Below are positions 45,012 to 47,852 of a DNA stretch of 64,000 bases, piece after piece. The first letter of the stretch is position 1, and every line of letters begins with the position of its first letter. The notes beneath the pieces were generated by a model. That model saw only the letters and a program-made list of their open reading frames with translations, did not search any database and had not been told where the DNA came from. This stretch comes from Candidatus Sulfidibacterium hydrothermale (GTDB lineage Bacteria > Bacteroidota > Bacteroidia > Bacteroidales > F082): the NCBI RefSeq assembly GCF_020149915.1, contig NZ_CP083760.1, positions 1,116,001 through 1,180,000 of the forward strand, written 5' to 3'. The position numbers and the translations under genes were made by a program.

Positions 45012-45971
45012 TTAAAAAAGCGTCTCAATAATAGTTTCTGAAAAACGGTTTCCTTTTAACAACGGGAGTAAGGTTTCTTTCGAATGTCTTTTTCCCAAAA
45101 GTTTTTGTTCAATTTTTTCCAGCCTTTTGTTTTCGAAAAGCAATGTAATTTGCCGGATCAATCCGTCGTTTACCTCTAAATCTACCTGAAAAGTACCATA
45201 CACCGTTTGGTATTGTTGCCGGATGCGGTATCGGGGAGAGTAACCAAAAGTCCATTGCCAGTTTTTGTATTTTTCGGTGGCCAGTTTCTCAATCGCTTGC
45301 TCTTCTGCTTTGGAGAGCGGCCTTTCTGTGTGAATGGAATAATGTCTTTTAAGGAATTGTTTTAAATCTTCCCGAAACCGGTCGGTTGATGGCGGATGAG
45401 AGAGAAAGTCGGCAATATTCGTTACGTGGGCCCGGATGGATTTGATGGATTTATCAGCGATGTTCTTGCTGTTCGGGCGGGTTACTTTCTCCAGTTTTTC
45501 CAGGTCGGTTTGATACAGCAGGGTGCCATGATGTAACACATTATTTTTGAATACATGGGCTGAATTGCCCGAAAATTTTTTACCGTTGATGGTCAGGTTG
45601 TTTTTCCCTTCAAAAGCTGTTTTCAGTTCGAATTGGTGAAGAAAATCCCTGATGGGCCGGGTAAATGATTTAAAATCAATAAGGTTTTTGTTTTTGGAAA
45701 CGGTTGTCATCAGGCTGATATTGATATTTCCCTGATCGTGATATACCGTACCGCCGCCGGAAATGCGCCGGATAACGGCGATGTGGTTTTCGCGGGCATA
45801 GTCGATGTTGACTTCGGCCAAAGTGTTTTGATGTTTCCCTACGATTACTGACGGGTGGCTTTGCCACAACATGAGGATGTCGTCTGTTTTGTTTTTCAAC
45901 AAAAACTCTTCGGCGGCCAGATTAAAAAACGGGTCGGTTTGCGGACGACAGATAAAGATCATATTTTGCAC
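45012..45971 (-). CDS. lplA: Lipoate-protein ligase LplA
   Basis: This 319-residue enzyme activates lipoate with ATP and attaches it to the E2 and GcvH lysines. It has the catalytic-domain motifs RRISGGGTVYHDQGN, KKFSGNSA and HHGTLLYQTDL, and a C-terminal accessory domain (about 245-319). It is the first gene of the lplA-oxidase-hypD unit, and the oxidase starts right after its stop. A scavenging rather than de novo route for lipoate is suggested. Confidence 0.93.
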   Translation of the reverse strand: MQNMIFICRPQTDPFFNLAAEEFLLKNKTDDILMLWQSHPSVIVGKHQNTLAEVNIDYARENHIAVIRRISGGGTVYHDQGNINISLMTTVSKNKNLIDFKSFTRPIRDFLHQFELKTAFEGKNNLTINGKKFSGNSAHVFKNNVLHHGTLLYQTDLEKLEKVTRPNSKNIADKSIKSIRAHVTNIADFLSHPPSTDRFREDLKQFLKRHYSIHTERPLSKAEEQAIEKLATEKYKNWQWTFGYSPRYRIRQQYQTVYGTFQVDLEVNDGLIRQITLLFENKRLEKIEQKLLGKRHSKETLLPLLKGNRFSETIIETLF

Positions 45972-46098
45972 AAAAACTTATCAACAGGACAAAGGTAGAA
46001 GATTTGCGAAAATAGTTTTGTTGCCAGCAAGATGGCGTTATATATTTTACAGAAAAAGTGGGGATTGTTAAAAATTGGACGTCGCAAAAATCCCTGTC

Positions 46099-46192
46099 GT
46101 ATCGGTTACAAATCAAAATGTGTTTTTGCTCATTTCATCCCCAAAGCACTTTGATTGAGTATCAGCATTTACCATTTTAAAATACAGTATCA
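46099..46192. repeat. Dispersed palindromic repeat, copy B
   Basis: The copy reads AATCAAAATGTG ... CACTTTGATT with a degraded central part (GTTTTTGCTCATTTCATCCCCAAAG read in two pieces) and keeps the flank AGCATTTACCATTTTAAAATAC of copy A. It ends exactly where the promoter of the leader peptide begins. Confidence 0.78.
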
Positions 46193-46222
46193 TTTGCAAA
46201 CGCCGGAAAAGTTTTATCTTTG
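46193..46222 (+). promoter_or_regulatory. Promoter of the cysteine-rich leader and desulfurase gene
   Basis: TTTG (46193-46196) and TATCTTTG (46215-46222) are separated by 18 nt. Both boxes match the Bacteroidota consensus exactly. Transcription should start about 46228, giving a short leader before the ATG at 46245. Confidence 0.85.
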
Positions 46223-46244
46223 CAGCAACATAAAAATTATAAAC

Positions 46245-46313
46245 ATGAATCATTGTTGTTGTACCGGTTTTTGTTGTTGTCAGGCTTGTTGTCTGAAAGC
46301 AGAACCATATTAA
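46245..46313 (+). CDS. Cysteine-rich leader peptide (22 residues), candidate attenuator
   Basis: The ATG at 46245 opens 22 codons ending TAA at 46311. Eight of 22 are cysteine (all TGT), in blocks CCC, CCC and CC. A perfect promoter precedes it, and its stop codon overlaps the left arm of a rho-independent terminator. The next gene encodes a cysteine desulfurase-type enzyme. This is the arrangement of a translation-coupled attenuator that reads Cys-tRNA supply. The peptide could instead be a small metal-binding product, but its position and codon pattern favour a leader. It has no separate Shine-Dalgarno sequence, as usual here. Confidence 0.8.
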   Translation: MNHCCCTGFCCCQACCLKAEPY

Positions 46314-46348
46314 AAAACAGTCTATTCGTTTGAAAGACTGTTTTTTTT
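46312..46348 (+). terminator. Terminator at the end of the cysteine-rich leader
   Basis: AAAAAACAGTCT pairs with AGACTG followed by eight T residues, with an inner TTC-GTTT-GAA helix and a single bulged A. The left arm overlaps the leader stop codon. It lies 35 bp before the desulfurase start. Confidence 0.85.
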
Positions 46349-46382
46349 ATGCCTGTACAAGAGCAATTAAAGCATAAAAGCC

Positions 46383-47852
46383 ATGCAAGATCTGGAAAAG
46401 CATTTTGAGAAATTCAGAAAGAATACCATTGGGAACGAACAATATTTTGAAACCCCGTATGGGCGGAAAAAGATGATTTATGCCGATTGGGTGGCCAGTG
46501 GCCGGTTATATGCTCCCATCGAAGAGAAGATGGCCAAAGTAATCGGTCCGTATGTGGGCAATACGCATACCGAAACCTCGGAAACCGGTACGTTGATGAC
46601 CAAAGCGTATCATTATGCCCACAAAAAAATTAAAGAGCACGTTCATGCCGGACCGGATGATGTGATCATTACGGCGGGTTTTGGAATGACGGAAGTGGTG
46701 AATAAATTACAGCGCATTTTGGGTTTTAAAAATTGTGCGGTTTGGGATAATGGCGAATGTACACCGAAAGAAGAACGTCCGGTGGTGTTTATTACACACA
46801 TGGAGCACCATTCCAATCAGACTTCGTGGTTGGAGACTATTGCGGAAGTGGTGCTGTTGCAGCCTGATGAAAATAATCTGGTCAATCCGGATGAGCTGCG
46901 CAGGCAACTGAAAAAATATGAAAACCGGAAGATGAAAATCGGTTCTTTCTCTGCTTGTTCAAATGTAACCGGTGTGGAACCGCCGTATCATACTTTGGCC
47001 GGCATTATGCATGAACATGGCGGGCTGGCTTTTGTTGATTTTGCCGGTTCGGCACCTTATGTGGATATTGATATGCATCCGGAAAATGAAAAAGAGTATC
47101 TGGATGCGATTTTCTTTTCGCCGCATAAATTCTTAGGCGGCCCTGGCGGACCGGGTGTGTTGATTTTTAATAAGAAAATGTATAATCGCCGGGTGCCGGA
47201 TCAGCCGGGTGGCGGTACGGTAGAATGGACCAATCCGTGGGGTGAACACATGTATTTTGATGATATTGAATTGCGCGAAGACGGCGGAACTCCCGGATTC
47301 TTGCAAGCCATGCGGGCCGCTTTAGCCATTGAAGTGAAGGAGCAGATGGATACCCAGCTTATCCGGGAACGGGAACATCAACTGGTGGAAAAAGCGTTTG
47401 AAGGATTTAAAGATATTCCGGGGGTGCATGTTTTAGCGGATAACGTGCATGAACGACTGGGGATCTTTTCGTTTTATATGGATAAAGTGCATTACAATCT
47501 GGTGGTGCGTATTTTGAACGACCGTTTTGGCGTTCAGGTACGGGGCGGTTGTGCCTGTGCCGGCACTTATGGTCATATTTTACTGGGTATCGGACCGGAA
47601 GAATCACATCGTATTACGGAGATGATTAACCGGGGCGATCATTCAAAAAAACCGGGTTTTGTGCGCGTTTCGTTACATCCTACCATGACCGATGAAGAAC
47701 TGGATATCATTATTGATGCGGTAAAACAAATAGCGGCACATCATGAAGAATGGTCGCGTGATTATCGTTACGACCCGGTATCCAATGAGTTTTACCATGT
47801 AAAAGATAAAAACCGGGATGCCCTGATTGCTTCGTGGTTTACGCTGGACTGA
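46383..47852 (+). CDS. Cysteine desulfurase-type aminotransferase (class V)
   Basis: This 489-residue PLP enzyme has the class V fold. The likely PLP lysine is in SPHKFLGGPGGPG (about residue 255) and the catalytic cysteine in RGGCACAGTYG (about 383). Residues YADWVASGRLYAPIE and HMEHHSNQTSW are typical of SufS/Csd relatives. It would release sulfur from cysteine, or a related substrate, as a persulfide. A long C-terminal extension (about 440-489) is not in SufS. No suf genes adjoin it. A cysteine-codon leader and terminator lie 35-140 bp upstream, which supports a link to cysteine. The exact acceptor is unknown. Confidence 0.88.
   Translation: MQDLEKHFEKFRKNTIGNEQYFETPYGRKKMIYADWVASGRLYAPIEEKMAKVIGPYVGNTHTETSETGTLMTKAYHYAHKKIKEHVHAGPDDVIITAGFGMTEVVNKLQRILGFKNCAVWDNGECTPKEERPVVFITHMEHHSNQTSWLETIAEVVLLQPDENNLVNPDELRRQLKKYENRKMKIGSFSACSNVTGVEPPYHTLAGIMHEHGGLAFVDFAGSAPYVDIDMHPENEKEYLDAIFFSPHKFLGGPGGPGVLIFNKKMYNRRVPDQPGGGTVEWTNPWGEHMYFDDIELREDGGTPGFLQAMRAALAIEVKEQMDTQLIREREHQLVEKAFEGFKDIPGVHVLADNVHERLGIFSFYMDKVHYNLVVRILNDRFGVQVRGGCACAGTYGHILLGIGPEESHRITEMINRGDHSKKPGFVRVSLHPTMTDEELDIIIDAVKQIAAHHEEWSRDYRYDPVSNEFYHVKDKNRDALIASWFTLD

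Follow-up and report, generated by a model that had tools for sequence, protein, structure and literature searches.

In a single Bacteroidota genus, a cysteine-codon leader ending beside a predicted terminator precedes the gene of a SufS-like desulfurase

Introduction

Canestrari et al. reportedly described, in 2020, mycobacterial leaderless short open reading frames (ORFs) encoding polycysteine, which lie upstream of cysteine-metabolism genes and act on translation. In the cys leader peptides of Actinobacteria, the Cys runs lie close to the stop codon, and a conserved terminator hairpin is absent (PMC1262725). In Rhodobacterales, uORFC-8-2 is located upstream of cysS and combines tandem Cys codons with a terminator bearing a U tract, an arrangement for which ribosome-mediated attenuation has been proposed; its Cys codons are usually codons 14–15, placed in a structured two-stem motif, and cysS would be ON under starvation (PMC8632094).

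The trp, phe and his attenuators of enterobacteria combine a short leader ORF, in which codons for the pathway's amino acid follow one another, with an intrinsic terminator downstream. In pyrBI of Escherichia coli, the leader ORF (pyrL) overlaps or abuts the terminator, translation prevents the formation of the stem, and UTP is sensed through RNA polymerase pausing at U-rich sites. According to one study, pacing by the pause sites is strict in pyrBI; the same study found that, in E. coli, the arriving ribosome represses almost entirely a terminator located a few bases 3' of a stop codon and that termination efficiency is maximal beyond ~27–30 nt from the stop codon, a rule that depends on sequence, with termination at 0.12 versus 0.8 in two series at 17–18 nt (PMC4824070).

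Attenuation leaders are not new to Bacteroidota. In Flavobacterium psychrophilum, "strong clues" that amino-acid operons are preceded by attenuating leader peptides have been reported (PMC9723704), and leader-like short ORFs have been reported in Bacteroides thetaiotaomicron (PMC7366714). Among the titles and abstract openings covered, we found no Cys leader in front of a cysteine desulfurase gene, and none in Bacteroidota, which is weak evidence of absence, most subscription journals lying outside that literature. In this work, we analyze a Cys-rich leader ORF in a stretch of 64,000 nucleotides of Candidatus Sulfidibacterium hydrothermale, hereafter the window. A preliminary description of this DNA held that polycysteine leaders are known from other phyla and are not known to have been described in this setting. 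The latter has to be narrowed by the terminator-bearing Cys leader already predicted at cysS of Rhodobacterales (PMC8632094). What is new here is the proposed logic, the target gene and the phylum.

Results and Discussion

The Locus in the Window

The leader ORF (46245–46313; this and all other features are on the forward strand) has its ATG at 46245 and its stop codon, TAA, at 46311–46313, and encodes MNHCCCTGFCCCQACCLKAEPY in 22 codons. Eight of them are TGT, arranged in blocks of 3 + 3 + 2 as the preliminary description had announced: codons 4–6, TGT TGT TGT (46254–46262), codons 10–12 (46272–46280) and codons 15–16 (46287–46292). The first block is present in all eight leaders that we found in the genus (see below). 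Among the ATG ORFs of 10–40 codons in the 64-kb window, a single one has at least eight Cys residues and a single one has CCC within residues 3–8, the leader being both. The peptide has no match in NCBIfam or Pfam, and a search of positions 45950–46450 against Rfam (4227 families) gave no match at gathering score, the best of the eight matches listed reaching 22 bits where 40 are required.

A Bacteroidota-type promoter with a putative start site (46193–46222) is made up of TTTG (46193–46196), an 18-nt spacer and TATCTTTG (46215–46222). The latter is an exact match to the -7 element TAnnTTTG of the Bacteroidota consensus TAnnTTTG/TTTG, as given in PMC7366714, and this element begins 26–30 nt 5' of the leader ATG in all eight leaders. 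The '-33' half is weak, since TTTG occurs near the expected distance in only two of the eight (18 nt in G000 and 17 nt in G003); the promoter, at first called exact, is thus exact in its -7 element. The leader ATG is located 22 nt after this element in the window, and 18–22 nt after it across the eight leaders; a leaderless start for the Cys leader seems unlikely.

The predicted intrinsic terminator (46312–46348) has a stem of 15 pairs at 46312–46346, with −13.4 kcal/mol, and a U tract extending to 46348. The first base of the stem lies inside the leader stop codon, which bears out the overlap claimed earlier. This terminator was absent from the output of a simple terminator scan, and one in 200 shuffles of the 125-nt leader folds equally well or better. 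Directly 3' of the second Cys block, folding predicts a small hairpin, UCAGGC-UUGUU-GUCUGA (46280–46296), which is also predicted in the same place in G002, G004 and G011, and in G003 in the free fold only. It might, speculatively, act as an RNA polymerase pause hairpin.

The gene downstream (46383–47852) has its ATG 36 nt 3' of the terminator stem and encodes a putative SufS-like PLP-dependent cysteine desulfurase of 489 aa. The product matches Aminotran_5 of Pfam (E 6.9e-46), and its closest solved structures in the PDB are chains of SufS-type cysteine desulfurases (E down to 2.8e-29). Judging by these alignments, it has a class V aminotransferase fold with an aligned Cys and Lys, which we take to be the catalytic Cys and the PLP Lys. 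The best NCBIfam model is SufS, with a score of 136.6, and since this is under the curated cut-off of 475.1, cysteine desulfurase is a designation at the level of the family, the exact subfamily and the activity being putative. The "class V cysteine desulfurase" initially proposed stands as a class V PLP enzyme that resembles SufS and misses the SufS cut-off.

Conservation of the Leader Within the Genus

We searched a sample of 12 genomes of the genus with the enzyme sequence, taking as orthologues the matches with E 1e-60 or better. Orthologues were found in ten genomes; at this cut-off none was found in G005 (87% complete) or G006 (94% complete). Upstream of the gene, eight of the ten (G000, G001, G002, G003, G004, G007, G008 and G011) share the same layout, that is, a -7 box, a short 5' UTR, an ATG, an early CCC, a stop codon and a terminator. 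We regard this as the decisive point: since the layout recurs in eight of the ten congeners with the gene, the leader is confirmed as a real feature and, as far as the compared sequences go, as a conserved and clade-specific cysteine-codon leader.

The eight leader peptides are MNHCCCTGFCCCQACCLKAEPY, MKFCCCSSCYKNI, MNHCCCNGICCCQISSFDT, MNHCCCNGVRCCHICCLIRELYKKTAFLL, MNHCCCNGTCCCQISFFDT, MKHCCCHKMLNCTQSNCCN, MNGFCCCNCLNCCCAICFAHH and MNLCCCNGTCCCQSFSLTPDI. They have 13–29 codons, 4–8 of them for Cys, with variable tails and variable non-Cys residues. The Cys-Cys-Cys block corresponds to codons 4–6 in seven leaders and to codons 5–7 in G008. In all eight, the distance from the stop codon to the terminator is between −26 and +13 nt, and the desulfurase gene lies downstream, 13–43 bp from the stem. 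Between the leader stop codon and the gene, no TAnnTTTG was found in seven of the eight, and the single match in G008 overlaps the terminator loop.

The layout is absent upstream of the orthologues of G009 and G010. In G010 there are upstream ORFs with Cys pairs, one of which (MSDPFCC...) is located 57 nt behind a TATCTTTG box, without the leader layout. In a quick tree of the enzyme (32 rows), a branch with support 77 has all eight leader-bearing genomes on the same side, which agrees with a single origin of the polycysteine leader in the genus.

What is kept in these leaders is the Cys codons, as indicated by an excess of in-frame TGY triplets, spacers in multiples of three and a drifting tail. 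Downstream of the first Cys block, TGY triplets number 27 in the reading frame of the leader, 3 in one of the other two frames and 2 in the remaining one. The first block is separated from the ATG by 9 nt in G008 and by 6 nt in the other seven leaders; a second block exists in six leaders, at a distance from the first of 12 nt in G003 and G008 and of 9 nt in the remaining four. Moreover, the tail RNA is similar in G011 and in G002 and G004, yet it is read in different frames. Such a pattern points to conservation of codons beyond a mere TGT repeat, and the sensing of codons is well supported by the comparison. One observation speaks for the nucleotide sequence itself: the Cys codons of the leaders are all TGT (51/51), against 59/98 in the 37 genes of at least 200 aa in the window, which may reflect either a preference for a single codon or an additional constraint at the RNA level.

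Stop Codon, Terminator and a Proposed Mechanism

The gap between the stop codon and the stem is −2 nt in G000, −26 in G003, 11 in G002 and G004, 3 in G011, 9 in G008, 5 in G001 and 13 in G007, whereas the corresponding values in E. coli are 42 for trpL, 60 for hisL, 46 for pheL and −47 for pyrL. As in pyrBI, where the leader ORF overlaps or abuts the terminator and its translation prevents the stem, the ORF ends in or beside the terminator in all eight leaders; in contrast to pyrL, it spans the terminator's left arm in G003 alone. Another difference is that the variable proposed here is the speed of the ribosome at the Cys codons and not UTP-dependent pausing.

Based on the short gaps and on the proximity rule of E. 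coli, prompt translation would most likely lead to read-through, and delay at the Cys codons to termination. With moderate confidence, we favor a ribosome-mediated attenuator that would read Cys-tRNA through the UGU run, with a pyrBI-like logic, and control the cysteine desulfurase. The transcript would start just 3' of TATCTTTG, and the ribosome would reach Cys-Cys-Cys at codons 4–6. With ample charged tRNA-Cys, it would pace the RNA polymerase and sit at or near the stop codon, beside the folding stem, so that the hairpin would be hindered and the polymerase would read into the desulfurase gene. With scarce charged tRNA-Cys, the ribosome would lag at codons 4–6, leaving the terminator without a competitor, and the transcript would end near 46348. 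Translation would suppress the terminator as in E. coli pyrBI, the signal being an amino acid and the sign the reverse of that in trp, his and phe. Read-through under ample cysteine would suit an enzyme that consumes cysteine.

The reach of the ribosome was modeled with a ribosome on the stop codon and a mask of 14 nt downstream of it. The predicted stem is abolished in G000, G003 and G011, P(terminator) is 0.63 in G001 and 0.81 in G008, and the stem is untouched in G002, G004 and G007 (0.95–0.98). The idea advanced in the preliminary description, that a ribosome finishing the leader would cover the terminator's left arm, thus applies fully to three leaders and partly to two, but not within 14 nt to the remaining three, and G002, G004 and G007 would need a longer ribosome reach, such as that seen in E. 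coli.

If this reading is true, one promoter, one ORF and one hairpin would make up a minimal attenuator, whose sign of control would depend solely on how far the stop codon lies from the terminator, and the sensing of cysteine codons would be extended to Bacteroidota and to a consuming enzyme. The scheme assumes ribosome–polymerase coupling in Bacteroidota. Since it works only with a ribosome coupled to the polymerase, the attenuator would offer a direct test of how close the two run in this phylum.

Comparison With Other Cysteine Leaders

Like the mycobacterial polycysteine short ORFs and the leaders of PMC1262725, the ORF described here is a short polycysteine frame upstream of a cysteine-metabolism gene. 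It differs from them in its early Cys codons, its 5' UTR and its intrinsic terminator, and so falls outside the leaderless class. It also falls outside uORFC-8-2, with CCC at codons 4–6 and a desulfurase as target.

Alternative Readings

A trp-type attenuator, in which stalling at the Cys codons would favor an antiterminator and turn the gene ON when Cys-tRNA is scarce, would be built from the same classical kit, a leader ORF with regulatory codons and an intrinsic terminator; in fact, clustered regulatory codons and an intrinsic terminator are present in all eight leaders, and the sign would be that of the cysteine attenuator predicted at cysS of Rhodobacterales (PMC8632094). We looked for an antiterminator in two ways. 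Masking the ribosome footprint at each codon of each of the eight leaders, we computed the probability of the terminator, which is 0.93–0.98 in all of them with the ribosome A site in the first Cys block. We also ended the transcript at the left arm and compared the pairing of this arm with the upstream RNA to that in shuffles; it amounts to 0.01–0.23 and is under the shuffle mean in the eight leaders. Some pairing is present in G003, in which the minimum-energy fold of the left-arm-ended transcript pairs the left arm upstream, with −4.3 kcal/mol and a probability of 0.20.

Controls from E. coli K-12 indicated that the folding test is moderately sensitive. The antiterminator of pheL was clear, with a pairing of 0.83 for a ribosome stalled at codons 6 or 10, 1% of the shuffles as high and P(terminator) at 0.00–0.03. 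The signal of trpL was weak (0.62, with 14–20% of the shuffles equal or higher and P(terminator) of 0.95 at full length), hisL was missed (0.12–0.44, no better than shuffles), and pyrL, for which no antiterminator is expected, gave 0.34 at codon 8, with 17% of the shuffles as high. Hence, no antiterminator is predicted in the eight leaders by a test that was clear for one of the three classical controls, no leader rising above the shuffle mean and P(terminator) remaining unchanged within this limited sensitivity; given that hisL was missed and trpL was weak, an antiterminator could go unnoticed if weak or kinetic, and the small hairpin 5' of the terminator in several leaders may be counted in favor of such a structure.

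The limited power of this test gives more weight to the distance argument. The gaps of −26 to +13 nt, against 42–60 nt in the three classical attenuators, leave an antiterminator little RNA between ORF and terminator, and we consider trp-type control unlikely. The reverse-of-trp logic put forward earlier agrees with the predicted absence of an antiterminator in the eight leaders and with the pyrL-like gaps, and its sign is the one we infer from them. The leaders resemble the trp, phe and his attenuators in the codon run and in the terminator that follows it, and differ from them in the predicted lack of an antiterminator (with the limited test), in the gap and in the expected sign. The leader would combine the action of pyrBI with the sensing of trp, and would probably not share every defining feature of either.

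Clustered Cys residues are able to coordinate metals or Fe-S species, and the gene resembles those of Fe-S and sulfur enzymes. A nascent CCCxxxCCC chain could bind a metal, or react with a redox or sulfur signal, and arrest the ribosome, in which case tRNA-Cys would not be the signal and the remaining layout would be identical. Arrest peptides usually require exact residues, whereas the spacing of Cys, their number (4–8), the length and the tails of the leaders are all variable; in addition, CCC begins only three codons after the start. A sensor of this kind is quite improbable in our view.

The succession of promoter, ORF and terminator is also what a tiny independent gene would look like, and the Cys-rich product could be a small protein, with the desulfurase expressed through leaky termination or from another promoter, for which the TAnnTTTG match overlapping the terminator loop of G008 might be a candidate. 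A protein of 13–29 codons with a C-terminus that is not conserved, and even read in different frames from similar tail RNA in G011 and in G002 and G004, speaks against it, as does the position of all eight leaders 13–43 bp (stem to gene) before the desulfurase, with no -7 motif in that interval in seven. We judge this very unlikely.

Finally, it is highly improbable that the ORF is incidental and that the conserved feature is a motif at the nucleotide level, GUUGUUGU, which resembles the GTTGTC of sister genera and would be bound by a protein or a small RNA, the stretch TGTTGTTGT mattering as RNA apart from its Cys codons. The exclusive use of TGT, the presence of GTTGTC in six of the eight leaders (at the second block in five and at the first in G007) and its recurrence upstream of other orthologues (12/80) fit such a motif, but TGY triplets after the first block are in frame in 27 cases and out of frame in 5, the spacer lengths are all divisible by three, every one of the eight leaders retains an ATG followed by an open frame, and GTTGTC is missing from G008 and G001.

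Beyond the Locus and the Genus

The pattern TTTG-ATG-Cys3 was matched in 12 of the 12 congeners, and we inspected eight apparently in-frame sites among the matches listed, none of which came from G010, G005 or G008. A regulon was not supported, six of the eight sites being apparent background or overlapping long frames. Of the remaining two, which we do not claim, MNANCCCSNF in front of rpsA in G007 is preceded by a good -7 box, but in the eight other congeners read no poly-Cys ORF stands behind a -7 box at rpsA; MNCCCPVCFLCVCQNDS, in front of trxB in G002, shares its position with an open frame of the opposite strand. In the window's own genome, a looser pattern gave 27 matches at up to two mismatches, against 22 for a reversed control.

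In a sample of 393 genomes of the order, only five of them from the family of the window, a stricter pattern, which misses a 9-nt spacing such as that of G008, was matched in 63 genomes, including that of the window; the reversed control was matched in many as well. We scanned 70 loci with 75 pattern sites (G422:C5, G047:C401 and G069:C87 were left out) and kept sites whose ORF has up to 45 codons and is not inside a long frame. Twelve sites passed, namely the window, three that stop within two codons and eight others; by eye, none of these eight combines a -7 box, several Cys blocks and an adjacent terminator.

Outside the genus, the loci read comprised 21 from the 30 best matches to the enzyme and the remainder of 80 named loci, and the layout was absent in all of them. 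A few loci have other Cys-containing upstream ORFs, the most suggestive in G021 (L012), MESDCVTNCRVEGCC..., without TAnnTTTG. The check first suggested for this leader, a search for Cys-rich ORFs upstream of homologous desulfurases, was thus positive within the genus, in eight of ten genomes, and revealed no such leader in the loci read outside it. GTTGTC was found at −70 to −20 in 12 of the 80 named loci, against one of at most 80 control windows further upstream, and nine of these relatives' loci had no Rfam match at gathering score. We conjecture that the polycysteine leader replaced, or grew over, the GTTGTC element in one clade. Tentatively, and with slightly less than even confidence, the whole may be read as a polycysteine leader that abuts a terminator, lacks an antiterminator, would be ON at abundant charged tRNA-Cys and arose once, in a single genus, while the gene of its relatives has a different 5' element, GTTGTC. 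Such a history would suggest the swap of one 5' control element for another in front of the same gene among close relatives. In the sister genera, the same gene often carries GTTGTC, sometimes with RCATYC before it, ~30–56 nt before the start codon.

Regions upstream of desulfurase genes

Among desulfurase orthologues that do not have the poly-Cys leader, a GTTGTC element recurs approximately 30-56 nt 5' of the start codon. We found it upstream of the desulfurase gene at L013, L016, L017, L018, L019/L046, L022, L023/L049, L025, L027 and L028/L056, and further at L042, L045, L052, L053, L057, L058, L076, L088 and L122. Counted between positions -70 and -20, GTTGTC occurred in 12 of the 80 named orthologue loci, against a single occurrence in the control windows (at most 80) placed further upstream. 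At some loci the element is preceded on its 5' side by RCATYC and a weak hairpin, and an Rfam search with nine GTTGTC loci returned no match reaching the gathering score.

Cysteine-containing reading frames were also present upstream of a few desulfurase genes. In G021 (locus L012), which belongs to the genus's sister branch, an ORF beginning with MESDCVTNCRVEGCCRLRGG, read on the reverse strand, lies about 170 nt 5' of the desulfurase start and contains a GC-rich hairpin and a T-rich stretch, and no TAnnTTTG box was seen for it. This ORF may be a relative of the leader that has diverged, or may have arisen by chance. Another Bacteroidales MAG (L053) has a 13-codon ORF, MHLFVACWLSCCN, with three Cys codons, 69 nt 5' of the desulfurase start.

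Within the genus, one leader (G008, L008) has a TAnnTTTG match overlapping the terminator loop, and it could serve as a second desulfurase promoter in that species. G007 has a second desulfurase, partial and divergent (59% identical; L121, C56:2-1189), which the enzyme tree placed outside the genus clade.

Codon choice and other cysteine-rich frames

All 51 Cys codons of the leader in the window (46245-46310) and its relatives are TGT, compared with 59 of 98 in the genes of the window.

Two further short ORFs lie 5' of other genes. In G007, MNANCCCSNF (L158:732-764, C51) follows a TATCTTTG box immediately 5' of rpsA, the gene for ribosomal protein S1; a similar short ORF behind a -7 box was not found upstream of rpsA in eight other congeners, and its occurrence in G007 is perhaps due to chance. 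In G002, the candidate MNCCCPVCFLCVCQNDS (L159:284-337, C52) is located 5' of the gene for a thioredoxin reductase and overlaps a reading frame that is open on the opposite strand.
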